Source: Arthrobacter sp. CDRTa11 (GTDB lineage Bacteria; Actinomycetota; Actinomycetes; Actinomycetales; Micrococcaceae). Taken from it: 64,000 bases of DNA. This document shows, in pieces, positions 2 through 12,113 of this stretch (position 1 is the stretch's first letter; the number at the start of each line of letters is the position of its first letter). The notes below the pieces were generated by a model. It worked only from the letters and a program-made list of their open reading frames with translations. It searched no databases and was not told where the DNA came from. The position numbers were made by a program, and so were the translations under genes. The stretch spans positions 4,774,001 through 4,838,000 of the forward strand of contig NZ_CP044532.1 in the NCBI RefSeq assembly GCF_026427775.1, given 5' to 3'.

Positions 2-457
2 GTCCTGGATCTGGAGCTCACCGTCACCGTGGAATGCCGGGGCCCACGCCAGCTGGACAACCTCGAGAAGCTGCTCCTCGCCGTCGAACGCCACAGCCAA
101 TACACCACAGCGCCGGCCGAAGCCGTCCCGACGGGCCTCGGCTTCCTGGTGCGGATCCCCGTCAGCCTCCGGGTTGATGAACAGTCTGGCCCGCCGGTCC
201 TGCAGCCGATGATCACTAAGACGGTGATCGGCCGCACCATCAGCGGCCGGCTCCTGGACAGCCACAACAACGGGATCCCCCATGCGCGGATTCGCGTTCA
301 TTCGTCCGCCAACGCCGTGGTCAGCGATGACTCGGGCGGATTCGAGGTCCTGGCCTCGGCGGACGAACTCCAGCATTTCGCCGTGCTCGTGCGCGGCACA
401 GAACGGCAAGTCACCGCTGCCACCAGCACCTTGCCAGTGACTATCCGGTGGGAATGA
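2..457 (+). CDS. CIS cap/tail-terminator-like protein, C-terminal part (5' end outside window)
   Basis: The frame is open from the first bases of the window, so the gene begins upstream and only about 151 residues are visible. The left part resembles the end of a DUF4255/Pvc16-type domain, the family that caps the sheath of contractile injection systems. From about residue 75 of the fragment (after the PMITKTVIGRTISGRLLD stretch) there is a carboxypeptidase-regulatory-like beta-sandwich, with the typical GRLLD..N.GIP.ARI..H and SDDSGGFEVLA signatures. The gene ends 13 bases before the sheath gene and is clearly in the same operon. The family is inferred from the neighbours and the domain pairing, because the diagnostic N-terminal part is missing. 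An in-frame GTG at 29 is probably internal, since coding similarity continues upstream of it. Confidence 0.6.
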   Translation, partial: VLDLELTVTVECRGPRQLDNLEKLLLAVERHSQYTTAPAEAVPTGLGFLVRIPVSLRVDEQSGPPVLQPMITKTVIGRTISGRLLDSHNNGIPHARIRVHSSANAVVSDDSGGFEVLASADELQHFAVLVRGTERQVTAATSTLPVTIRWE

Positions 458-470
458 AAGGGAGCGCACG

Positions 471-1829
471 ATGCCGAACTACCAGGCGCCAGGAGTTTAC
501 GTACAGGAGATACCCAGCGGCAGCCGTCCCATAGGACAGGTCAGCACCAGCATCGCGGCGTTCGTGGGCATCGCCCCGGACACCTCCGCCCACCTCCATG
601 AGGCCCGGGTCCTCGATAACTGGACCCAGTTCGTGGACCAGTTCGTGGGCAAGGCCACCGAGGGTTCGCCGCTGTCCAACGCAGTGTTCGGCTTCTTCTC
701 CAACGGAGGCAGCCGCTGCTATGTGGTGAATGTGGGGAAAGGTGGCAGCCTGATGGGCACCGCCGCCAAGCCCACCGGACTGACCCTTCTCGAAGCAATC
801 GATGACATTTCCATGGTGGCCGCTCCCGGATATACGGACGCCGAAGCTTACGCCGCACTGCAGGCCCATGTGGAGCATCCGCTCCGGCAGGACCGGATGG
901 CCATCCTGGACACCGTGGAGACAGTGGACGACGTCGGTGTCCTCACCCGGGCGGCCACCTCCGGAGTGCCTGACGCAGACAGTCACTCCGACGGAGACAA
1001 AACAGACCGTGATGAGACAGACGAAACAGAAGGTGACGAAACAGAAGGCGGCACAACAGATAGCGGCGCAACAGATAGCGACGCAGCCGAGCCTGCCGCC
1101 GGGCCTCCCCCTCCCGCGGCGGCTCCCACATCAGGCAGGCGCGGCAGTGAGGAAGACGCGCTGGGCGCCCCACAATCACCAGGCGGATACACGGCGCTGT
1201 ATTTTCCTTGGATTGTGATGGTTGACCCGGTGTCCGGGAAGAAGGTGACGCAGCCGCCGTCGGGCCATATTGCCGGCGTGTGGGCGAGGGTGGATGCCAC
1301 CCGGGGCGTGCATAAAGCGCCCGCCAACGAGCCCATCCAGGGTGCGCTGGATCTGGCAAGGCGCGTCAGCCGCGGTGAGCAGGAGACCCTCAACCCGGCC
1401 GGGGTGAACTGCATACGGTACTTTCCGGGCGAGGGGATCCGTATCTGGGGAGCACGCACCAGGGCGGCTGAAGCCAGCGAGTACCGGTACATCAACGTCC
1501 GCAGGCTGACCAACATGATCAAGGAATCAGTGGCCGAGGGGACGCGCTGGGTGGTATTTGAACCGAACGACCATACTCTGTGGAAGTCCATCCGCCGCGA
1601 TGTGGGGGCGTTCCTCACCAATGTCTGGCGGGACGGGGCGTTGCTGGGGACCACTCCGCAGCAGGCGTTCTATGTGAAGTGCGACGAGGAAACCAACCCT
1701 GCCAGCGTGCGCGATGCAGGCCAGGTAGTCACGGAGATAGGCATCGCACCGGTGAAACCCGCCGAGTTCGTGATTTTCAAACTCATGCAGTCAGCGGACA
1801 CGACGTCCATAGAAAACGCAGGAGCCTGA
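471..1829 (+). CDS. CIS contractile sheath protein
   Basis: This 452-residue protein forms the outer contractile sheath of the phage-tail-like particle (counterpart of Afp2-4/Pvc2-4). The start PNYQAPGVYVQEIPSGSRPI with following V..TS.AAFVG is the hallmark of tail sheath proteins. The C-terminal part carries the other usual blocks: a YFPGEGIRIWGART segment, YINVRRL, RWVVFEPND and the closing IAPVKPAEFVIFKL strand used for the handshake between subunits. Residues about 166-236 are a low-complexity insertion, acidic and threonine-rich first, then proline/alanine-rich. It lies where larger sheaths carry a surface domain, so the core is compact. The ATG at 471 has a GGGAG-type ribosome site just upstream. 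The stop is one base from the tube start. Confidence 0.95.
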   Translation: MPNYQAPGVYVQEIPSGSRPIGQVSTSIAAFVGIAPDTSAHLHEARVLDNWTQFVDQFVGKATEGSPLSNAVFGFFSNGGSRCYVVNVGKGGSLMGTAAKPTGLTLLEAIDDISMVAAPGYTDAEAYAALQAHVEHPLRQDRMAILDTVETVDDVGVLTRAATSGVPDADSHSDGDKTDRDETDETEGDETEGGTTDSGATDSDAAEPAAGPPPPAAAPTSGRRGSEEDALGAPQSPGGYTALYFPWIVMVDPVSGKKVTQPPSGHIAGVWARVDATRGVHKAPANEPIQGALDLARRVSRGEQETLNPAGVNCIRYFPGEGIRIWGARTRAAEASEYRYINVRRLTNMIKESVAEGTRWVVFEPNDHTLWKSIRRDVGAFLTNVWRDGALLGTTPQQAFYVKCDEETNPASVRDAGQVVTEIGIAPVKPAEFVIFKLMQSADTTSIENAGA

Positions 1830-1830
1830 T

Positions 1831-2310
1831 ATGACCACTCAACCGCCGTCAGCCCAGCCGGGCGTCCAGGTTACCCCCTACCGCGACTTCAACTTCAAAG
1901 TGGTCATCCAGGGCGTCGTCCAGGGGCATTTCACCAAGGTGGAGGGCCTGGGCATGTCCATCGGGCGGATCCTGTTCCGGGCCGGGGGCGAGAACAGCGC
2001 AGTCCGCGTCATTCCCGGCCAGGTGGAGTACACCCCCGTGACGCTGAAGTACGGCCTGACCGACTCGACCGAGATGCTGCAGTGGCTGTTCCGGGCAGTG
2101 GAGGGGCAGGTGGAGCGCCGCAACGTCTCCATCGCCATGCTTAACGACGCCGGCACAGCCGAGGTGCGGCGCTGGAACCTTATCGGTGCCTGGCCGTGCG
2201 ACTGGTTCGGCGCCCCGCTGGATGCCCTGGGCAAGAACCTCGCCATTGAATCGCTCAGCATCGCCTATGACCGCCTGGAGTTGGATGATGCCCGGGCCCC
2301 GGTGGCGTAG
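1831..2310 (+). CDS. CIS inner tube protein
   Basis: This 159-residue protein belongs to the T4 gp19-like tail tube family (Afp1/Pvc1 type) and should stack as hexamers inside the sheath. Evidence is the N-terminal PYRDFNFKVVIQG beta strand followed by F.KVEGLGM, the central EYTPVTLKYGLTDSTEMLQW block, and the C-terminal RRWNLIGAWPCDWFGAPLDA and ESLSIAYDRLEL blocks, which are the family pattern in order. The length matches the family. It starts one base after the sheath stop. Its end overlaps the start of the next gene by about 25 bases in another frame, so translation is probably coupled. Confidence 0.95.
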   Translation: MTTQPPSAQPGVQVTPYRDFNFKVVIQGVVQGHFTKVEGLGMSIGRILFRAGGENSAVRVIPGQVEYTPVTLKYGLTDSTEMLQWLFRAVEGQVERRNVSIAMLNDAGTAEVRRWNLIGAWPCDWFGAPLDALGKNLAIESLSIAYDRLELDDARAPVA

Positions 2311-3562
2311 TGCCGCCGCCGGCTGGCTGAGGCAGGCGGCAGACAGCCTCTCCCCCTCCCCTGAGGTATCCGCCACGGACCACCCACCTTACGACGGCGG
2401 CCATCTCGCACCGGATGCGGCGGCCGCGGGCAGCCGCCGCTTCGATCTGGGTGAAGCTCCCGAACACTGGGTGAAGCTCCTGCGTGATGCCGGCCTGGTG
2501 GCTGGCGGGCATGGAGTGGGTAAAGCAGGGCCGACGACGCCTGCGGACGACGACTCGGCAGGTCCGGCTTCTGTGCCTCTGGCGAGTTCTGCCCAGGCCG
2601 GTTCTGGAGAGGCCGGATCGCTGCGCGCCGACGCGGCTGATGCCGGCAACGCTGCGGCTTATGGGCAAGCAGCGCGCGCGGAGGGTGCAGGCGCCGGCGG
2701 ACACCACCCCCGGGCCAATGGCGGCAGACGTATTCCGCGGCTGCTCATTGGCCGTCGGACTGCCACAAGCCAGCCGGTTTTAAGGGAGCATGCAGCCAAC
2801 GGACAGGCCGCCAGCCCGCACGCTGCCGACCCGCAGGCCGCTCGCGCCGGCAGCGCTTCCGATACAGGAACTGCCCACATCAGCCGCCTGGGGGCTGAAG
2901 CAGTACCGAAGGAGGGGCAGGGGATGACGAGACCAGGTTCGCTCCCCGGCCCCACACCTCCCGGGTCAGGCGAACCCGCCCTCACGTCCGGATCCCACAG
3001 ACATTCAGCACGGCGGGCTGCTCCCACACTTGCATCGAACACCAATCAGCCGGCACGGCAGCCGTTGCCAAATGCGTCGCCGCCGGAGCCGTCCGCCCCG
3101 GAGTTACCGGGGGCGGCAGGACTGACGGTGCCCCCGGGGCTGTCGAGACAAGAAGGGCTTTCGGGAGAATTTGGGACGTCGGGACCACAAAGGCTCTCGG
3201 AACGGAGTGTGCGTTCGGGGCTCTGGAGACTGGCATGGTCCCCGGAACGATTCTCTTCAGCGGCAGCCCCCTCCGGTGAGGGAACGGTACAGACGGGTCC
3301 GGCCGCCGTCGTCGTTCCAGAGGGTCAAACTGCTCCCAAGCAACCTGCCCAGAACCGGGCACATCCGGAGCGGCCTCTCGACGGCGCCGGCGTGCAGTAC
3401 CCCGCCCTTGGGCCGGCGGCCAGGAACCTGCCATCCGCGCTGGCAGGCGAGTGGCCCGAGCTCCCAGTAATCCATGCCGCGCCTGCCACGGAAGCGGCGC
3501 CGAAGATCGAGCAGGCCCTGACCCGGAATCTCCGGCTCCGCGACGAGCAGCAGGCGGTTTAG
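2285..3562 (+). CDS. Long disordered CIS accessory protein
   Basis: This is a 425-residue protein starting at the ATG pair 2285/2288, inside the end of the tube gene. Residues about 49-70 contain a short ordered block, FDLGEAPEHWVKLLRDAGL. The last 60 residues contain a second one, around WPELPVIHAAPA and a charged helix ending RLRDEQQAV. The roughly 300 residues between are rich in Ala, Gly, Pro, Ser and Arg with no hydrophobic core, so they are likely disordered. Tightly packed CIS operons of actinobacteria often have such a gene between tube and adaptor, but its role is not established. Possibilities are a tape-measure-like, chaperone-like or cargo-holding protein. The continuous frame, the position and the terminal blocks support a real gene; the function is unknown. 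Confidence 0.75.
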   Translation: MMPGPRWRSAAAGWLRQAADSLSPSPEVSATDHPPYDGGHLAPDAAAAGSRRFDLGEAPEHWVKLLRDAGLVAGGHGVGKAGPTTPADDDSAGPASVPLASSAQAGSGEAGSLRADAADAGNAAAYGQAARAEGAGAGGHHPRANGGRRIPRLLIGRRTATSQPVLREHAANGQAASPHAADPQAARAGSASDTGTAHISRLGAEAVPKEGQGMTRPGSLPGPTPPGSGEPALTSGSHRHSARRAAPTLASNTNQPARQPLPNASPPEPSAPELPGAAGLTVPPGLSRQEGLSGEFGTSGPQRLSERSVRSGLWRLAWSPERFSSAAAPSGEGTVQTGPAAVVVPEGQTAPKQPAQNRAHPERPLDGAGVQYPALGPAARNLPSALAGEWPELPVIHAAPATEAAPKIEQALTRNLRLRDEQQAV

Positions 3563-3563
3563 C

Positions 3564-4328
3564 GTGGAACGTGTGGCATTCCTCATCGAGGACACCGGCG
3601 AACACCTTGGCTGCCTGCTCAACCCCGAAACGGTGGTGATGACCCGGACAGCGGGTGTGGAACCGCGGAGGTCCGCGGGTGGCAAACTCACCGGTTCGGG
3701 ACTGGCTGACGACCCCCTCCTGTTCACCGGCGGCGGGCATACCGAACTGCGCCTGGACCTGCTGTTCGACGTGGACCTGGCCCCCGTCAACCTTCATCTG
3801 CAGGACGTGCGGCAGATGACCCGGCCCATCTGGGCACTCGCCGAAAACTCTGCCGAAGTTGAACGCCAGCGGCGGCCGCCGTCGGTCCGCTTTGTGTGGG
3901 GGCGCGCCTGGAACGTCCCGGGCATCGTCACGGAAGTGGCCGAGCGCTTTGACCGTTTCTCGCCCGATGGCTCGCCGCTACGCTCATGGATGCGGATGGT
4001 TTTCGTCCGCGTGGGCCAAAGCGCGGACGAGGAAGGCGGCGAAAATTACGAGCTCGCCCAACGGCTGCCGGCCGTTGACCTCACAGCTCCGCCGGTGGAT
4101 ACCCTCCCGGTGTACGGGGACGGCGGCACCCCCGGCGCCGCATCAGTGGTGGAGCCCGACGGCGAAACTTCAGTTCCGGAGGTCCCGCCGGGTGAACTGG
4201 GAAGGCTTTCCCTGGCGGCCTTCGGAACGCCCCTGTTGTGGAAGCTGCTCCTGGAGTACAACAACATCGATGATCCAGCCCGCTTCGCCGGTCCCCTCGC
4301 CGTTCCGCCGCTGGGGGAAACGCCGTGA
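3564..4328 (+). CDS. CIS tube-baseplate adaptor with LysM-like domain
   Basis: This 254-residue protein is an Afp7/Pvc7-type adaptor that links the inner tube to the spike and baseplate. The N-terminal half reads RVAFLIEDTGEHLGCLLNPETVVMTRTAG, with later TELRLDLLFDVDLA and a RPIWALAENS segment, which is the pattern of the CIS tube/adaptor family. The C-terminal 45 residues (FGTPLLWKLLLEYNNIDDPARF..PLAVPPL) form the LysM-like module typical of these proteins. There it acts as a structural module, not a cell-wall binder. Translation starts at a GTG right after the preceding stop. Its end overlaps the spike gene as GTGA. Confidence 0.88.
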   Translation: MERVAFLIEDTGEHLGCLLNPETVVMTRTAGVEPRRSAGGKLTGSGLADDPLLFTGGGHTELRLDLLFDVDLAPVNLHLQDVRQMTRPIWALAENSAEVERQRRPPSVRFVWGRAWNVPGIVTEVAERFDRFSPDGSPLRSWMRMVFVRVGQSADEEGGENYELAQRLPAVDLTAPPVDTLPVYGDGGTPGAASVVEPDGETSVPEVPPGELGRLSLAAFGTPLLWKLLLEYNNIDDPARFAGPLAVPPLGETP

Positions 4329-5863
4329 GGCAACTCCAGGGCCTGCCGGAACTGATCGTCACCCTCGGGCGGCGCAGGCTCAGCGCATCTGAAACGGCCG
4401 CCATCATCTCCGTGCAGGTCCTGAGCACCTTGGCCCGGCCGGCACAGTGCCTCATCAGCTGGCGGCCCGGCCCCGGTCCGGGGCGGTCGCTCGGCGGCGG
4501 GCGGTCCCCGGCCGGGAGCGTTGATCCCGCACCGGGCGACGCCCTGCGGGTGGAGGTGGGCGGGTTCCGGGCGCCGCTCTTTGCGGGCGAAGTGACAGTG
4601 GTGGAGTACAGCTACGGCGCGGATCTGTCCCAGGAAATCCGGGTGCGTGCCTATGATGCCCTGCACCGGCTGCGGAAGCGCCAGTTCACCCGTTTCCATC
4701 CGGACACCGACCTGGCGGCGTTGGCCGGGACGCTCTGCGAAGGGACGGGGCTGCTGGTCACGGGTGGAGGGACGCCCCTGGGGGACGTCTATCAGTGCGC
4801 CCGCTCGGACCTGAGCCTGCTGGTGGAGCAAAGCGCCCGCGTGGGGGTGTATCCGGTGGTGGACGACGGCACGCTCCGGCTGCCTGGCCTGTCCGGCGAG
4901 GGCGATCCCCTGGACCTGGAGCTTGGTACCAGCCTTCATTCCGCGGAGGTGGAAATCAGCCAGGAGCCGGCGTTCGCGGGTGCCCGCACCTCCGGCTGGC
5001 GGGCCGATGACGCGTCCCCGCAAGGTGCCACCGCCGGCAGCAGTGACGCCAAGGCCGGCGTTACCGCCGATCCGGCACTGGCCTCGGTGGGCGCAGGCGG
5101 CAAGCTGCTGCGGGACAATGAGCCGCTGGCCTCGGCAGCGCTCGCGGACCACCTGGCGCAGGCGGAACTGGACGTCCGGGTGGCGGGCCAGGTCACCGCG
5201 GTTTTTGTGGCCGACGGCGATCCCCGGCTCCGGGCGGGCGGGCGGGTCCGCGTGCGGGGGATTGCCCAGCGGCTGGAAGGAACCTATGCGGTGACCTCCG
5301 TGACCCATCGGCTGGACGGCACAGGATACGAAACCACCGTCTCCACCCTCCCGCCGCCTCCTCCGCCGGAGCGCAAACCGGACGTCTTCACCTTGGGGAT
5401 AGTGTCCGACGTCGACGATCCGGAGGGCCGCGGACGCGTCCGCGTGCGGCTGCCCGCGTATCCGGAGCTGGAAACGCCGTGGGTACCGGTGATGTACGCG
5501 GCGGCCGGCGCGGACAAGGGGCTGGTAGCACCGCCTGGTCCGGACGACACCGTGCTGGTGCTGCTGCCGGCGTCCGATCCCGGCCAGGCGATTGTGTTGG
5601 GCGGGCTGTTCGGGGCCGGGCAGCCACCGGACGCGCAGGTGAGCGGTCCGCGGGACGGCCGCTTTACGTTCAGGACCCGGGACGGCCAGGAGGTGCAGCT
5701 GGACGGCCATGCCCATACTATCCGGCTCAGCAACGGCCATGGCTCCGCCGTGGAACTGGGCCCTAACAGGCTCCGAATCACGGCGGCCACGGACCTGCTG
5801 CTGGAGGCACCCGGAAGAGCCATGACCATTCGGGCAAAAACCGTGGACTTTGAGGAGGCCTGA
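4325..5863 (+). CDS. VgrG-like central spike protein of the CIS
   Basis: This 512-residue protein should trimerise into the central spike at the tip of the tube (Afp8/Pvc8 type). Residues 1 to about 345 are a gp27/phage-late-control-D-like region (VEYSYGADLSQEIRVRAYDALHRLRKRQ..F). Residues about 355-435 form a gp5-like OB fold (FTLGIVSDVDDPEGRGRVRV.LP..PELETPWVPVM and LVLLPASDPGQAIVLGGLFG). The last 70 residues are short repeating beta strands ending in a needle stem. There is no added enzymatic domain. The GTG start overlaps the upstream stop. The stop shares its final A with the ATG of the PAAR-like gene. Confidence 0.93.
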   Translation: MRQLQGLPELIVTLGRRRLSASETAAIISVQVLSTLARPAQCLISWRPGPGPGRSLGGGRSPAGSVDPAPGDALRVEVGGFRAPLFAGEVTVVEYSYGADLSQEIRVRAYDALHRLRKRQFTRFHPDTDLAALAGTLCEGTGLLVTGGGTPLGDVYQCARSDLSLLVEQSARVGVYPVVDDGTLRLPGLSGEGDPLDLELGTSLHSAEVEISQEPAFAGARTSGWRADDASPQGATAGSSDAKAGVTADPALASVGAGGKLLRDNEPLASAALADHLAQAELDVRVAGQVTAVFVADGDPRLRAGGRVRVRGIAQRLEGTYAVTSVTHRLDGTGYETTVSTLPPPPPPERKPDVFTLGIVSDVDDPEGRGRVRVRLPAYPELETPWVPVMYAAAGADKGLVAPPGPDDTVLVLLPASDPGQAIVLGGLFGAGQPPDAQVSGPRDGRFTFRTRDGQEVQLDGHAHTIRLSNGHGSAVELGPNRLRITAATDLLLEAPGRAMTIRAKTVDFEEA

Positions 5864-6201
5864 TGAAACTGCTGGTCACCGAGGCCATCCTGCGCTGCGG
5901 CCACGACGGAATCGTGGCCAACGTGCCCTCACAGGAATGGGTACGGGTAGCCGGGCTGCCGGTCCTGGTGGATCACGATCCGCAGGGCCGGGACATTGCC
6001 ATGTGCCCCAACGTGAATATCAACATCAAGCCATGCACCAAAACCCTGATGGTGCGGACCGGCTACTCCGGGTTTGTGCGGATCGGCGGCCAGTCGGTAT
6101 GCCTGGATACCGTGGAAGGCTTCACGGACGGCACACCGCCCGGAGCCGTGAAATACACGGTGCGCCGGCCCGGCCAGGTCTTTGTGGAGGCGGGATCATG
6201 A
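5863..6201 (+). CDS. PAAR-like spike tip protein of the CIS
   Basis: This small 112-residue protein is encoded directly behind the spike gene, with a one-base stop/start overlap. Its sequence starts TEAILRCGHDGIV and later has MCPNVNINIKPCTKTL, with four Cys and a few His residues that could coordinate a metal. The position and size suit a PAAR-type tip that sharpens the VgrG trimer (Afp10/Pvc10 role). The match to classical PAAR repeats is not strict, so the assignment leans on context. It overlaps the gp25-like gene by ATGA. Confidence 0.75.
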   Translation: MKLLVTEAILRCGHDGIVANVPSQEWVRVAGLPVLVDHDPQGRDIAMCPNVNINIKPCTKTLMVRTGYSGFVRIGGQSVCLDTVEGFTDGTPPGAVKYTVRRPGQVFVEAGS

Positions 6202-6632
6202 GCGCCCCCCGGTACCGTTCCATCGCCTTTATCCACCCGGATTTCGACGCCGGCGCCGGAGTTCCGGGGCTGCGCCTCACGCCAGCGGGACGGCTGGGCG
6301 TTGTCACGGATGCGGCGTCGGTCCGGCAGGCGCTGTTGCTGCTGCTGAGCACCAGGCCCGGCGAGAGGATCAACCGGCCAACCTACGGCTGCCACCTTTT
6401 CCGGCTGGTTTTCGCCCCGGCGGACGACACCACCGCCGGCCTTGCCATCCATTACGTCGCCCGCGCGGTGGAGCAGTGGGAGCCGCGGATCAATGTCCTG
6501 TCCCTGGACGCCGGACGGTCACCGGAGACCCCGGAGCTCCTGGAAGTCCGGCTGCGTTACCGGGTGCGCACCACCCAGCTTGAGGACGAAATCGCCATTG
6601 CCGTGCCCGTTGCTTCCGGAGGCGCCCCATGA
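6198..6632 (+). CDS. gp25-like baseplate protein of the CIS
   Basis: This 144-residue protein belongs to the gp25/GPW lysozyme-like family (Afp9/Pvc9), which nucleates the sheath on the baseplate. The diagnostic features are G.VTDAASVRQALLLLLSTRPGERINRPTYGC followed by LVFAPADDTT and an EPRINVLSL strand. As is usual in this family the fold is structural, and no lysozyme activity is implied. The ATG at 6198 overlaps the preceding stop as ATGA, and the stop overlaps the next ATG the same way. This tight coupling suggests fixed stoichiometry. Confidence 0.93.
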   Translation: MSAPRYRSIAFIHPDFDAGAGVPGLRLTPAGRLGVVTDAASVRQALLLLLSTRPGERINRPTYGCHLFRLVFAPADDTTAGLAIHYVARAVEQWEPRINVLSLDAGRSPETPELLEVRLRYRVRTTQLEDEIAIAVPVASGGAP

Positions 6633-9307
6633 GTATCCCCGTGCCCAATCTTGACGACCGGAACTTCGCGGACCTGGTGGCGGCAGCCCGCGAGCGCATC
6701 CGGCAGGTGGATCCAGAGTGGACGGACCTCTCGGTGCACGATCCCGGCATCGTCATCGTGGAGGCCTTCGCGTTCGTCACCGAAACCCTCCTCTACCGTG
6801 TCAACAGGGTGCCGGAAAAGCTCTATGCCGTGTTCCTGAACCTCATCGGCACCAGCCTCCACCCGCCCAGCACCGCTGAAACCCTGCTGGAGTTCAGCCG
6901 CGCCACCCCGGGCACGGAGGAGATCCAGATCCCGCGCGGCACCCAGGTGGGCTGCCCCGCCGGAGTACCCGGGGCGCCGCAGCCGGTATTTACGACGACG
7001 GCGGCGGCAGTGATCCCCGCAGGTGCGGCGAACGTACTGGTCCCCGCAGCCGACGTGACGCTGTACGACGCCGTACGGATCGGCGTCGGTACCGGGCGTC
7101 CAGGGCAAAACTTTGAGATTCCCAACGCGCCGATCGTGTCCGGAGCGGGACTGGCCATCGCGATGGAGGTTCCGGAGGGCACCCGGCTGGCCAGCGGCGC
7201 GGCTGTCCTGGTGGAAGGGAAGCGGTTCCGCTACTGCCGGGAAGTGGAGGCCTTCGCCGACGCGGAACCCGGCGAGGCGGCGGTAAAGATCGACCGCAGC
7301 GCGGGTGTGGCCATGTTCCCCTGGTGGGACGAGGCGGATGCCGGAAGTCCCGGGCTGATCGTTCCGGCTCCCGGTGCAGAGGTCCGGGCCTGGTACCGGG
7401 CCGGCGGTGGTGAGCGGGGCAATGTGGGCGCAGGTCAGCTGACTGTCCTGCGCACGCCGGTGGCGGGAGTGCGGGTAACGAACCCTGAACCGGCCACCGG
7501 CGGCCGGAACGGCGAGTCCGTGGAAAACGCGCTGCGGCGGGCCCCGCAGGACTTCCAAGCCAGGGACCGCGCTGTCACGGTGCGCGATTATGAGGTGCTG
7601 GCTGCCAGGCACGCCGGCGTGGCCCGGGCCCGGGCCTTCACACGCAAGGATTTGTGGGGTTTCGCGCGGCCGGGCGAGGTGGAAGTGGTGCTGGTGCCGT
7701 TTGTACCGGGACACGGTGCAGGGCCAGGAGCTGGGCCGGGATCCGGGCCGGGCACTGACCGGAATCCGGAACCGGTGCAGGCGGAGGACCTGCGTGCGCA
7801 TGCCCGGGACCAGGTCCGCACCGAGGTGGAGAACTATCTTCGACGCCGGTCCACGGTGGGCGCGGAGCCGGTGGTGCGGTGGGGCCTGTACAAGGAAGTG
7901 CGGGTGGATGCCCGGGTGGTAGTGCGCAGCGACGAGGACGCTGAGGCGGTCAAGGCCCGGATCATCGGCCGCTTGTCTGCCACCATCAGCCCCCTCGCCA
8001 AGGGAGGCTCCGGCTATGGATCCGGGTTTGGCCGGCCGCTGCGGGTGTCAAACCTCTACCGGGCCATGGAGGAATCCGAGCCCGGTGTGCAGTACGTGGA
8101 CCGCGTCCGGCTGGAGGTGGACAAGGTTCCGGACAGCGATGCCGTGGGTCTGGTGCAGGCGGACGGCCAGTCGCGCACCTGGTTTGTGGCGCAGCAGGGC
8201 ATCCTGTTCCGGACCACCAACGCGGCGGACGGCTGGGAGGCGTGCGCGGAGTTTGGCGGGCCGGGGGCTCCAGGGGACGCTTCTGGGGAACCATCTGAGA
8301 CTATCCGCACCATCGCCCCCTTCCGCTCCCCCGCACCCGGCCGGCTGGGTCCCGAGAAGCATCCGGGCATGGTGGCCGTCGCCACCGCCACAGCGGACGG
8401 ATCCCGGATCTACATCAGCGAGGACCTGGGCGAGTCCTGGCGGCGGGCAGCGGAACTGGGATTCGGCGTCGTGGATCTCTGCTGGGTGGACCGGCAGGGA
8501 TCTCCCGTGTTGCTCCTGGCCGGCGAGCACGGGCTGTACGAGCTGCCCATGGAATCCGGCGCCGTTCCCGTGCAGAACCTGGTGGATGCCGCCCAGCCGG
8601 ACCGCGGCTTCTATGCGGTGGAGGCGTTTGTTGACGTCCGCGGCCGCACCGCCGTGGTGGTGGCGGCGCAGGCGTCGGCGGGCATCTGGCTATCCCCCGA
8701 CGCCGGCGCAGCGGGCACCTTTACGCAGATCAAGGCCGCAGGCGAGGACATCCGGTGCATGGCCATCCAGTACGACGGCGCCTCAACCCACCTCTGGCTG
8801 GGCCGCTCCACCCCGGAGGGAAGCGGGACAGGATGCCTGCGCCTCAAGATCGACGAACTGGCCCGCACCCAGTTGGAGTCGCTGGCAGGCTCGTGGGAAG
8901 AGTACCGGGCAGGGTGGACCGGCGGGAGCTGCTGGGGAGTCCACGTCACAGGAAACGCCACCTACGCCGCCACCCAGAGCGGCGGGGTGCTGCGGCTTCA
9001 GCTCGGTGACGCCTCCGCGCAGTGGAGCGTTCCGGACGTGAACTGCGGGCTGCCGCTGCGCGACCGGACGCGCTTCGAACCGGTGCGCTCCGTCTCCGGC
9101 GCGGTCCTTACGGATACCGGATCTCCCGACGGCGGCGCAACAGTCATCCTCGCGGCCGGACCCAAGGGGATCTTCCGGAGCCTTGACCTCACTTCGTCCT
9201 GGCAGAGCTGCAGCCGGCGCGTAGTGGAGGACGTGGTGACCCTCCCGGAGACGTGGCTGTTCTGCTCCGGCCAGCACCGGATCGAGGTGGTGCGCAGCCA
9301 TGGTTGA
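6629..9307 (+). CDS. Baseplate J-like wedge protein fused to an Asp-box (BNR) propeller
   Basis: This is an 892-residue protein. Residues 1 to about 500 match baseplate J/gp6-like wedge proteins (Afp11 type): LDDRNFADLVAAARERIRQVDPEWTDLS.HDPG at the start, then NRVPEKLYAVFLNLIG, a GGRNGES.ENALRRAP block and RDRAVTVRDYE..A..H.GVARARAF. From about residue 505 to the end the sequence changes to repeated strands with Asp-box-like motifs: ILFRTTNAADGWEACAEF, IYISEDLGESWRRAAEL, IWLSPDAGAAGTFTQI and GIFRSLDLTSSWQSCS. This indicates a beta-propeller appended to the baseplate subunit. The propeller may be a peripheral recognition or sensor module. The stop overlaps the next gene by 8 bases. Confidence 0.87.
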   Translation: MSIPVPNLDDRNFADLVAAARERIRQVDPEWTDLSVHDPGIVIVEAFAFVTETLLYRVNRVPEKLYAVFLNLIGTSLHPPSTAETLLEFSRATPGTEEIQIPRGTQVGCPAGVPGAPQPVFTTTAAAVIPAGAANVLVPAADVTLYDAVRIGVGTGRPGQNFEIPNAPIVSGAGLAIAMEVPEGTRLASGAAVLVEGKRFRYCREVEAFADAEPGEAAVKIDRSAGVAMFPWWDEADAGSPGLIVPAPGAEVRAWYRAGGGERGNVGAGQLTVLRTPVAGVRVTNPEPATGGRNGESVENALRRAPQDFQARDRAVTVRDYEVLAARHAGVARARAFTRKDLWGFARPGEVEVVLVPFVPGHGAGPGAGPGSGPGTDRNPEPVQAEDLRAHARDQVRTEVENYLRRRSTVGAEPVVRWGLYKEVRVDARVVVRSDEDAEAVKARIIGRLSATISPLAKGGSGYGSGFGRPLRVSNLYRAMEESEPGVQYVDRVRLEVDKVPDSDAVGLVQADGQSRTWFVAQQGILFRTTNAADGWEACAEFGGPGAPGDASGEPSETIRTIAPFRSPAPGRLGPEKHPGMVAVATATADGSRIYISEDLGESWRRAAELGFGVVDLCWVDRQGSPVLLLAGEHGLYELPMESGAVPVQNLVDAAQPDRGFYAVEAFVDVRGRTAVVVAAQASAGIWLSPDAGAAGTFTQIKAAGEDIRCMAIQYDGASTHLWLGRSTPEGSGTGCLRLKIDELARTQLESLAGSWEEYRAGWTGGSCWGVHVTGNATYAATQSGGVLRLQLGDASAQWSVPDVNCGLPLRDRTRFEPVRSVSGAVLTDTGSPDGGATVILAAGPKGIFRSLDLTSSWQSCSRRVVEDVVTLPETWLFCSGQHRIEVVRSHG

Positions 9308-9905
9308 ACCGGATTTCAGGGCGGAAGATTCCGCAGTGGCGCGTGTGCTGCCCGAGGTCTTCCGGGTGGCCGCGGCGGCCAGCAGTGTCCACGGGGCAAG
9401 CCCTCCCCTGCGTGCGCTGCTGGCCGTCGCGGAGGACCTGCACCGGCCCGTCCGGACCATCCTCGACACGGTGGCGACGATTCCGCACCCGGGCCAGGTG
9501 CCGTCGTCGCTGGTTCCGTTTTTGTCGCGGTGGGTGGACCTGGACTGGCTGATACTGCCGGACGCGAAGGCCGCCGGATCGGCGGGCGCCGAGGTTCCCC
9601 TGGCCCGGCAGCGGGACCTGATTGCCGCGGCTTCGCAGCTCTCCGCACGCCGCGGAACCGTGGACGGGCTGGTCCGTTTCCTGCATCTGGCCACGGGAGT
9701 CCGCGGCTTCACGGTGGGCTCGGTTCCGGGCGCGTTCCACATGCTGATAGGAGTGCCGTCTGCGGCGGAGAGGCAGCTGGAGCTGGTACGGAGGATCGTG
9801 GACGGCACCAAACCGGCTCACGTCACCGCGGAGATTATGGTGCTGCCAGATGTTGGGCCTGCCGCCGGGAGTGCACCTGCCGCGGAGGGTGGTGGCGGGC
9901 CGTGA
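9300..9905 (+). CDS. Tail-protein-I-like baseplate protein of the CIS
   Basis: This 201-residue protein resembles the P2 gpI-like phage tail family. An N-terminal helical part (PEVFRVAAAASSVHGASPPLRALLAVAEDLHRPV) is followed by FLSRWVDLDW, RQRDLIAAASQLSARRGTVDGLVRFLHLATGVRGFTV and a C-terminal beta part. It lies directly behind the baseplate J gene, as in other CIS and P2-like clusters, and likely completes the wedge. The start overlaps the upstream gene by 8 bases. The end overlaps the membrane-protein gene by 4 bases (GTGA). Confidence 0.85.
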   Translation: MVEPDFRAEDSAVARVLPEVFRVAAAASSVHGASPPLRALLAVAEDLHRPVRTILDTVATIPHPGQVPSSLVPFLSRWVDLDWLILPDAKAAGSAGAEVPLARQRDLIAAASQLSARRGTVDGLVRFLHLATGVRGFTVGSVPGAFHMLIGVPSAAERQLELVRRIVDGTKPAHVTAEIMVLPDVGPAAGSAPAAEGGGGP

Positions 9906-10387
9906 GCGGAAGTGAGAGCAGGAAGCCGCTGCTGGTAGTCGGGGTGTGTGCCGTGATCGCGGTCCTGGTGCTGGTGCTGGGCGTGAGCTGCGGCAGTGGC
10001 GATGACGGCGACGGCGCTGCCGCGAAGGAGTGGCAGGAATCGTTTGGCGAAGCGGCCGGCGGGGCGGACCTCACCGCTGGGGACCTGAAAGCCGGCGGTG
10101 ACAACTGCACGGTGTCTGAATCCCGGCTCATCGTGAGCGGGTCCTGCGTGTTTGTGGTCAAAGACTTCGGCGCGGCGTTCGGTCTTGGCCCGCCCACCAA
10201 ACGCGGCACGCTGGTACCGCAGCAGGATGTGGCCATAGAACTGTTGGTCCAGGGCAGCCGGATAGAACAGGACATTGAGGCGGGAAAGGACATTCCGCTG
10301 ACATTTGGAACTTCGGGCGGGCGGCTGGGCGTCACCTGCCTGTCCGTGGGCGGCTGCACGTTGCAGCTAATGGAAGCAGGAGGATGA
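9902..10387 (+). CDS. Single-pass membrane protein coupled to the CIS operon
   Basis: This 161-residue protein has a GTG start that overlaps the upstream stop. Residues 1-7 are polar with a basic pair, and residues about 8-28 form one hydrophobic helix rich in Val/Leu. The remaining 130 residues are hydrophilic and should be outside. A Cys follows the helix (LGVSCGSG), but residue -3 is Gly, so a lipobox is not convincing and an uncleaved anchor is more likely. The outside part has paired Cys (NCTVSESRLIVSGSCVF; VTCLSVGGCTL), suggesting disulfide-held beta structure. I do not recognise a family. Its coupling to the tail gene upstream and the PASTA gene downstream (ATG two bases later) implies a role linked to the CIS. 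Confidence 0.8.
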   Translation: MSGSESRKPLLVVGVCAVIAVLVLVLGVSCGSGDDGDGAAAKEWQESFGEAAGGADLTAGDLKAGGDNCTVSESRLIVSGSCVFVVKDFGAAFGLGPPTKRGTLVPQQDVAIELLVQGSRIEQDIEAGKDIPLTFGTSGGRLGVTCLSVGGCTLQLMEAGG

Positions 10388-10388
10388 C

Positions 10389-11351
10389 ATGGGCACCATC
10401 ACCATGACGCTCAGTTCCCCGGGTGTGGAACTGAAGGACGGAAAAGGCTCCCTGGCCGCATCCGTGACCAATGCCGGGGCGGAGAAGGAACCCGTGGTGC
10501 TGGGGGCTTTTTCGGCACAAGCCGCCAGCCCGCCCGGGGCCACCTACGCCAGCATCGACAAGCCACTCCGTGTCATTCCGGCCGGCGCCACGGAGCAGTA
10601 CGTCGTGAATTTTGACACCACAGGAGCCTCGGCCGGCAACCACCAGGTGAAGCTCATTGCGTATTCAGCGGACGAGGCCCCCGAGGACTACGCGGACCAG
10701 GCGCACGTGGTCACGCTCGTGGTCCCGGCGGCCGAGGAGGAACGCAAGAAGAAGTTTCCGTGGCTGTGGGTAGTGATTGGAGCCGTCGTACTCCTGGCCC
10801 TGATCGGCGGCGTGGTCTGGTTCCTGCTGAAGGACGTCACCGTGCCGCCCGTGGAGGGGAAGCAGGTTGCCGAGGCCACCCAGCTCCTGACGGATGCCGG
10901 GTTCAGCGTGGGTACCACGGAGAAGGAGGATGCCGCTCCCAAGGGGCAGGTGCTGTCCCAGGAGCCCGACGGCGAGACCTCCGCGCCGCGCGGCTCCAAC
11001 GTCACGCTGGAAGTGGCGGTACCGGTGAAGGTGACCATGCCGGACATTCTTGGCAATTCCATCGAAACGGCCCGGGAAGCGCTGACCATGGCGAAACTGG
11101 AGCTGGTGTTTACCAGCGATTCCACCTGCACCTCATCCCCGGTACGGCCGCCGAACGTCATTTTCTATGACTACTGCGCAGTGGCCGGGGTTGAACCCAA
11201 GGCAGGCGAGCCGGTGGAAACGGGCAGCCGGGTGGCGGTGATCTCCGAAATCCGGACCACTGGATTCATCTTCCCGCCGATCAACAAGTGCGTATTGAAC
11301 CCGGAGCAATGCGTGAAGATGGTTGAGCCCGGGCCGATCCTGGGCGGGTAG
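10389..11351 (+). CDS. Membrane protein with cytoplasmic Ig-like domain and two extracellular PASTA domains
   Basis: This 320-residue protein closes the CIS operon. Residues 1-113 form a beta-rich Ig-like domain without a signal peptide (ITMTLSSPGVELKDG, SLAASVTNAG, VIPAGATEQYVVNF). Residues 114-123 are charged and end in KKK. Residues 124-147 are a single membrane helix, and by the positive-inside rule the N-terminal domain is cytoplasmic. Residues about 149-212 and 213-287 are two PASTA domains (VPPVEGKQVAEATQLLTDAGF; MPDILGNSIETAREALTMAKLEL). The second has a Cys-containing insertion, and the tail adds two more Cys. PASTA domains bind uncrosslinked peptidoglycan or related cell-wall ligands in Ser/Thr kinases and PBPs. 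The kinase is absent here, so this looks like a wall-bound tether or sensor for the particle. Confidence 0.88.
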   Translation: MGTITMTLSSPGVELKDGKGSLAASVTNAGAEKEPVVLGAFSAQAASPPGATYASIDKPLRVIPAGATEQYVVNFDTTGASAGNHQVKLIAYSADEAPEDYADQAHVVTLVVPAAEEERKKKFPWLWVVIGAVVLLALIGGVVWFLLKDVTVPPVEGKQVAEATQLLTDAGFSVGTTEKEDAAPKGQVLSQEPDGETSAPRGSNVTLEVAVPVKVTMPDILGNSIETAREALTMAKLELVFTSDSTCTSSPVRPPNVIFYDYCAVAGVEPKAGEPVETGSRVAVISEIRTTGFIFPPINKCVLNPEQCVKMVEPGPILGG

Positions 11352-11354
11352 CGC

Positions 11355-12113
11355 TCAGTCCGCCAGCGACCCGCTGACCCGCACGGCGTTGACGATTGCC
11401 GGGATGGACGCGATCAGCATCACCAGTGCCCAGACCAGGGCAACGACGACGGTAATGAGCGCCCAGAACTGGTCGCCGATCGACACTAGCGGGCCGGGCA
11501 GGAATCCGTGGATCAGGCCAAGGACCAGCTGCAGGACCACCGAGACCACAATAAGCAGCACCAGTCCCACGATCTTCAGGAAGGCCGGCTGGCTCAGGAC
11601 CAGCAGCACCACAAACACGATCTTGAGCATCAGTATCAGCCCCAGGATCACCGCCGCCTCGTCCACCGGAAAACTGCCCCACAAGGCGAGGTAGGCGATG
11701 GTGCCGAATGGCGTGGCCACCAGCAGGCCGAACATCAGGAAGAGCTTGGCCAGCGCAATCATTGCTGCGAAGAACGCGCCCACCACCCAGAGGAAGGTGA
11801 CAACCAGCGTCACGATCCCTTGGACCCTGCCGTAAACCCGAAGGTTCATGATGAGGCTCAGGCCCAGCATCACCACAGTGAACAGGAGTAACCCGTCCAG
11901 GAACGCGAGGTAACCGATCCCGCTTCCGGGTGGTTCGGCGTCGGCCTTCTCCGTCTGGAGCAGCACCTCCGGCGGGACTCCCATCCCGTTGGCTGTGGAC
12001 GGCGCGACGGGGTCCACTGCAGTGTTCCCCAGCAGCAGCGCCAAACCGATCTCGGCCAGCACTGCGATGGCAAAAACCACCACAGCGGCGATGAAAAAGG
12101 GGCGCCGCAACAT
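11355..12113 (-). CDS. Polytopic membrane protein of unknown function
   Basis: This 252-residue protein has about six or seven hydrophobic helices. The first spans residues 5-29, a polar loop around residues 30-68 follows, and then the helices come close together. No transporter signature or catalytic motif is visible. It points towards the CIS operon and its stop is only 3 bases from the stop of the PASTA gene, so the two ends share a terminator or read into each other. Whether it belongs functionally to the CIS cannot be decided from sequence. Confidence 0.75.
   Translation of the reverse strand: MLRRPFFIAAVVVFAIAVLAEIGLALLLGNTAVDPVAPSTANGMGVPPEVLLQTEKADAEPPGSGIGYLAFLDGLLLFTVVMLGLSLIMNLRVYGRVQGIVTLVVTFLWVVGAFFAAMIALAKLFLMFGLLVATPFGTIAYLALWGSFPVDEAAVILGLILMLKIVFVVLLVLSQPAFLKIVGLVLLIVVSVVLQLVLGLIHGFLPGPLVSIGDQFWALITVVVALVWALVMLIASIPAIVNAVRVSGSLAD

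Follow-up and report, generated by a model that had tools for sequence, protein, structure and literature searches.

A candidate membrane-anchored docking receptor with a PASTA head in an actinobacterial contractile injection system operon

The gene and its operon

The window, by which we mean the whole 64,000-nucleotide stretch of DNA that was analyzed, starts within a contractile injection system (CIS) operon, with CIS structural genes from position 471 onward (Table 1). Judged by eye, the ORFs of at least 130 amino acids over 12 kb preceding the start of the window included no recognizable CIS gene, and were of DnaK, GrpE, sugar transport, MMPL and MarR types. The best solved relative of the sheath protein is the S. 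coelicolor CIS sheath (8bky/9gtp, E 1e-113) and that of J is a 9gtp baseplate protein (E 5e-51, J residues 108-496). The cluster also has genes for tube, spike, gp25 and Tail_P2_I, and by its gene content it is an actinobacterial CIS related to that of S. coelicolor (CISSc).

Relatives of the first small protein of the operon precede the sheath in many loci. The low-complexity frame, whose true start is probably downstream of 2186 and whose product might serve as cargo or cap, matched none of the families in Pfam, PHROG and NCBIfam, and neither did the short protein labeled PAAR-like. For the Tail_P2_I protein, the match to the CIS12 family was far below that family's cut-off. The beta-propeller appended to J occupies about residues 500-865 (about 8126-9223 of the window). 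For the small bitopic protein we chose a GTG start at 9902, which gives 161 codons, overlaps the Tail_P2_I stop and leaves one hydrophobic segment (19-residue mean 3.28). Only 1 nt separates this CIS-linked gene from the next, which encodes the candidate receptor.

Table 1. Features of the CIS operon and domains of the candidate receptor, in window coordinates.
Feature	Coordinates	Strand	Evidence
Small CIS-linked protein, weak carboxypeptidase-regulatory-like domain	29..457	+	Pfam PF13620 E 2e-4, below cut-off
Contractile sheath protein	471..1829	+	PF04984, PF17482
Inner tube protein, gp19-like	1831..2310	+	PF06841 E 4e-35
Low-complexity Pro/Gly-rich frame between tube and CIS_tube	2186..3562	+	ORF
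CIS_tube protein (tube initiator)	3564..4328	+	PF19266 E 5e-15
VgrG/gp5-like spike	4325..5863	+	PF04717 E 6e-18
Short protein, PAAR-like label by position only	5863..6201	+	kept in CIS loci
gp25-like baseplate protein	6201..6632	+	PF04965 E 1e-23
Baseplate J (Cis11-type) with C-terminal beta-propeller appended	6629..9307	+	
Tail_P2_I baseplate protein	9300..9905	+	PF09684 E 3e-7
Small bitopic protein: N-terminal helix, cysteine-containing C-terminal domain	9902..10387	+	
Candidate CIS docking receptor, 320 aa	10389..11351	+	ORF, Pfam, AF2 model
Constant N-domain, residues 1-114, PapD/MSP-like Ig fold	10389..10730	+	
Transmembrane helix, residues 125-147, KKK just before	10761..10829	+	AF2 helix, hydrophobicity
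PASTA domain 1	10836..11018	+	PF03793, 52.5 bits
PASTA domain 2	11031..11240	+	PF03793, 27.8 bits
Convergent polytopic membrane protein	11355..12113	-	7 hydrophobic segments (6-7 helices)

Anatomy and predicted topology of the candidate receptor

Pfam, the AF2 model and the ORF coordinates confirm what the original prediction had read from the sequence: a beta-rich N-terminal domain, one helix and two PASTA domains, encoded next to CIS genes. A chance PASTA-like ORF is ruled out by the E value of 1.6e-20 together with the high-confidence fold, and also by its closest relatives, which are 81-91% identical to it over the full length. No kinase domain was matched in the protein at E 1, and the N-domain has an Ig-like fold. 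Two other identities were tried and rejected. As a candidate phage receptor-binding protein, it gave a single match in a PHROG scan (E 0.067); the top named match in a search of viral folds was a PASTA/PknB-type phage protein, many of the matches there being unnamed. As a candidate defense-system protein, it matched PD-T4-6 models in PADLOC over residues 108-253, which are mostly helix and PASTA, and these matches were therefore taken as similarity to kinase ectodomains.

For comparison we used 40 homologues carrying the same N-domain (the window protein, those of the 28 loci described below and that of L074). All 40 have a strong hydrophobic segment between the two halves (19-residue mean 2.3-3.4). 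None has a cysteine before the helix, and after it 39 of them have 0, 2 or 4 and the remaining one has 5. That pattern, the absence of any signal-like segment from the window protein and the location of PASTA on the far side favor the cytoplasmic N-domain of the original prediction: the N-domain is probably inside and the PASTA head outside. The argument from charge, on the other hand, fails over the family. Around the helix the window protein has 4 K/R residues on one side vs 2 on the other, but the means over the 40 homologues are equal (1.93 vs 1.93), and charge therefore does not prove the topology.

The position after Tail_P2_I, the constant N-domain, the variable C-termini and the multiple copies are all features of extracellular CIS (eCIS) fibers as described in PMC12923769, and would also fit a tail fiber of a released particle that recognizes other cells, with the hydrophobic segment being no real anchor in the producer's membrane. 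We regard such a fiber as very improbable, given that the segment is kept at the hydrophobicity stated above in every homologue, that the AF2 model contains no fiber shaft and that DUF6519 (eBAP5, the only eBAP compared) was not among the families matched by the 40 homologues at E 0.01.

A constant N-domain joined to exchanged heads

In two protein database searches, residues 1-146 recurred joined to other C-terminal halves, which precomputed Pfam annotation assigns to PASTA, TIG, Big_2, META and CARDB. Pfam matches at E 0.01 gave 27 PASTA, 4 TIG, 1 Big_2 and 1 META head among the 40 homologues. Thirteen of the 40 have no Pfam PASTA match, and for that reason wall reading through PASTA cannot be general to the family. 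Two distant loci add further heads: L098 encodes Laminin_G_3 plus PASTA and also three PASTA stretches, and L099 three PASTA stretches. The L074 head found no match in Pfam, and its likeness to a carbohydrate-binding module was judged only by eye. Mean pairwise identity falls from 0.587 in the N-domain, which includes a conserved YSAD..PE stretch at residues 92-99, through 0.455 in the helix to 0.314 in the outer part. At least two receptor copies are present in 10 of the 27 distinct contigs (L028 and L029 share one), and in nine pairs of copies from the same locus the N-domains are 60-77% identical vs 24-54% outside. On a tree of 113 N-domains, head type needs 16 changes where the minimum possible is 10; this is a quick tree, with head labels from precomputed Pfam and partly by eye, and 45 of its 107 inner branches are weak. 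At the level of sequence, then, PASTA is one among several interchangeable heads on a constant N-domain.

The heads in seven loci (L023, L025, L032, L034, L035, L036 and L038) have in common a cysteine motif without a name, approximately C..GYVWR...D..CVT...R...EN, which sometimes replaces PASTA and sometimes follows it.

Linkage to one CIS lineage

The original prediction had named in advance a finding that would speak against it, namely homologues situated mainly away from CIS operons, and looking for it gave the opposite result. A scan of genome contigs with two peptide patterns gave 100 stretches, 30 of them confirmed, in 28 loci on 27 distinct contigs, and CIS genes lie beside the N-domain gene in 28/28 loci, a count that covers the relatives with a readable neighborhood (108 database proteins came without context). 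J and Tail_P2_I are usually directly upstream; the copy in L028 is found before the sheath gene. Decay or an assembly error has split a number of the CIS genes of L012 (Arthrobacter sp. Hiyo8) into frames.

Scans of genomes sampled from the family, the class and the phylum, which overlap and all include the window's genome, gave the same picture. Among the matches listed for the 197 family genomes, those beginning at the N-domain come from 6 genomes, and all the others listed start no earlier than model position 99, i.e. cover helix and PASTA (a search with the whole alignment counted 189/197 genomes); with 11 candidates scored in each genome, some weak N-domain may have escaped. In five of the six, J, Tail_P2_I and the small bitopic and polytopic genes adjoin the N-domain gene, and the sixth (G105), which is near a contig end, has the same neighbors except J. 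CIS_tube was found in 11 of the 197 genomes, 5 with the N-domain and 6 with CIS genes but without it. Among the 345 class genomes, two of the five N-domain matches were clear (G000 and G391), both at CIS; the other three, at about 23 bits, were free of CIS genes within the 19 kb fetched (one of them, G532, has CIS_tube on another contig), and we treated them as chance Ig similarity. The scan of 346 phylum genomes gave three matches, all at CIS. The clear matches listed by the three scans (6, 2 and 3) are thus all at CIS, every one of the distant ones (G391, G661, G800) lies inside a CIS locus, and the gene that the original prediction had proposed to seek beside CIS operons of other actinobacteria was found across families of the phylum.

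Seventeen other CIS loci contained no N-domain at E 1. This absence is partly one of selection, since apart from the second cluster of G098 they were picked from CIS_tube genomes in which no N-domain match was clear; in addition, contig ends leave three of them shorter than 12 kb. With these loci partly preselected, the fair figure is that of the class scan: CIS_tube in 51/345 genomes vs a clear N-domain in 2/345. The N-domain thus appears specific to one CIS subtype, with other CIS types lacking it. Genome G098 has two CIS clusters of different types (L094 and L043), and a receptor with the N-domain in only one of them.

These counts rule out coincidence, resting as they do on 28/28 loci and on distant matches that are likewise at CIS. 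They also bear on whether the gene could be a passenger, a kinase-less PASTA receptor for envelope signaling that sits in the operon and makes no contact with the particle. PASTA plus one helix does resemble a PknB without its kinase (NF033483 over residues 110-284, far below cut-off), yet the linkage persists across families of the phylum despite different heads, and no other part of the protein is as well conserved as the N-domain; we consider a passenger improbable.

The J propeller and two further membrane proteins

The C-terminal propeller of J comes and goes with the N-domain: it is present in 28/28 distinct N-domain loci with a J-core match and in 0/13 J proteins elsewhere (30 distinct N-domain loci were compared, 2 of them cut by contig ends, with the 17 other loci, 4 of which had no J-core match). 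This makes the propeller the best candidate, and most likely the partner, for a predicted contact of the N-domain; the co-occurrence may also reflect shared descent instead of contact, both being markers of the lineage. By fold the propeller (in J 6629-9307) is WD40/GH74-like, and among the loci compared it occurs only in the CIS lineage with the N-domain.

Two further membrane proteins follow the same distribution; like the propeller, they had no part in the original prediction. Relatives of 9902-10387 were found in 28 of the 30 distinct N-domain loci and relatives of the polytopic 11355-12113 in 29 of the 30, with none of either in the other CIS loci; a search for the polytopic gene in the 197 family genomes gave exactly the 6 genomes that have a listed N-domain match. 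In most relatives of 9902-10387 the helix is followed by 4-6 cysteines, and a C-terminal stretch is conserved. The polytopic gene is convergent in the Arthrobacter relatives, and in L034, L035, L036, L038 and L074 it shares the strand of the CIS genes. In 16 loci we also looked at the interval between the receptor and polytopic genes: the same gene, aminotransferase-like by eye, recurs in 12. A neighboring effector was rejected here, none of the likely ORFs in these intervals looking toxin-like by eye.

A possible role in docking

On balance we favor, as probable, a docking role for the protein: anchored in the membrane, it would serve as the receptor of a cytoplasmic CIS. The original prediction, of particle recruitment through the cytoplasmic domain and a read-out of wall damage or growth through PASTA, finds partial support here. 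The constant N-domain would stay in the cytoplasm and dock the baseplate, most likely through the propeller of J (Cis11); the helix would span the membrane, and the outer head with its two PASTA domains would contact the cell wall. Docking would carry the CIS particle to the membrane, where engagement of the head may position the particle or free the baseplate to fire.

PASTA proteins are known to be located at growth sites. The head may serve as a positioning scaffold rather than as a sensor, only keeping the particle where wall is being made (poles, septa), with the trigger elsewhere, e.g. in the polytopic protein 11355-12113 or in membrane damage. The two further linked membrane proteins in the locus could supply such a trigger, and swapped heads would fit if any wall anchor serves. 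However, the loci with two or more receptor genes, whose outer halves are far less alike than their N-domains, suggest that head specificity matters, and we think a pure scaffold rather unlikely.

If the heads do sense, the docking receptor may belong to a receptor-gated CIS lineage, an extension that we put forward tentatively. Firing would be licensed by swappable transmembrane receptors, each head (PASTA, TIG, Big_2, META, CARDB, LamG, CBM-like) reading its own envelope cue, while one PapD-like module common to the receptors docks the baseplate propeller. Such receptors would amount to tail fibers reversed into the producer's own membrane, plus two dedicated partner membrane proteins.

Novelty and meaning

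The original prediction held that a PASTA module in this position had not been described, and our survey agrees with it. In the open-access literature of published papers we found none joining a contractile injection system or phage tail-like baseplate with a PASTA domain and none linking contractile injection with Cryobacterium; the papers on Arthrobacter and contractile injection, by their titles and the start of their abstracts, do not concern a PASTA receptor. Neither 'PASTA' nor 'transmembrane' occurs in the main text of PMC12923769, and 'PASTA' does not occur in PMC12210884.

A CIS membrane adaptor is a known kind of protein, and what we did not find described in that literature is the architecture of N-domain, helix and exchanged head. 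This architecture is real and conserved and goes with a single CIS lineage; its function as a receptor is predicted. It bears on the way in which cytoplasmic CIS in Gram-positive bacteria get to the membrane and time their firing, for which CisA is the described adaptor in Streptomyces. The inner domain of the candidate adaptor is folded, the J propeller can be named as its putative partner and the ligands of the heads are open to guessing, which makes the trigger directly testable; the adaptor is accompanied by two conserved membrane proteins (9902-10387 and 11355-12113).

Comparison with known systems

The closest parallel is CisA (SCO4242) of S. coelicolor, as presented in PMC12237407: it is bitopic, with its N-terminus inside and an envelope-facing C-terminal domain, contraction and stress-induced death depend on it, and it was not found in the structure of the purified particle. 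For its cytosolic part, described there as largely unstructured, a contact with the J-type protein Cis11 is predicted. The dedicated membrane protein of a cytoplasmic Streptomyces CIS, on which the original prediction had drawn, is thus a real parallel. According to the same source, 75 of 120 genomes with a type IId locus, from Streptomyces and other actinomycetes, have a CisA match, which leaves room for other adaptors.

Ten other CIS loci were inspected, and in 6 of them the slot after Tail_P2_I holds a CisA-type zinc-ribbon gene. The six proteins, which are proxies chosen by position, all have zinc ribbons, four have an F5/8-type C domain and five have a helix over threshold (L091 is the exception). 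The N-domain profile showed no detectable relation to them (hhalign probability 7.5%, 16 columns); neither zinc ribbon nor F5/8-type C was matched in the window protein or was among the 10 families matched by the 40 homologues. Judged against these positional proxies, the idea of a CisA homologue was rejected. The window receptor resembles CisA in its predicted bitopic layout and in being encoded just after the baseplate genes, with one small bitopic gene intervening, and differs in its folded PapD/MSP-like inner domain and its PASTA head; the simplest reading would make it a functional counterpart.

The eCIS fiber catalogue of 2026 (PMC12923769) describes five N-terminal anchor domains with swapped C-terminal binding modules; about 90% of the fibers are encoded downstream of genes of the Tail_P2_I/J type, and 23.4% of loci have more than one fiber; loci without fiber candidates were set aside. 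The receptor family likewise combines a fixed N-domain and swapped C-modules with several copies and the slot after Tail_P2_I, but it has a transmembrane helix between the halves and a PapD-like N-domain of 114 residues.

With the receptor kinases PknB, PrkC and StkP the window receptor shares a PASTA ectodomain, but a small Ig-like domain takes the kinase's place, there are two PASTA domains and the gene belongs to a CIS operon. The PASTA domains of PknB and PrkC are reported to bind lipid II or muropeptides (PMC6428115, PMC5786024), and it is plausible that the PASTA head, though not the N-domain family as a whole, takes its cue from damage to the wall or from its growth. The thylakoid CIS of Anabaena is intracellular and attached to the membrane through its baseplate, as PMC12237407 describes; there, attachment is described as by a baseplate extension or membrane-bound fibers and not by a PASTA receptor. 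By analogy, the receptor would work like a membrane-tethered fiber and like CisA, and we file it as a member of neither.
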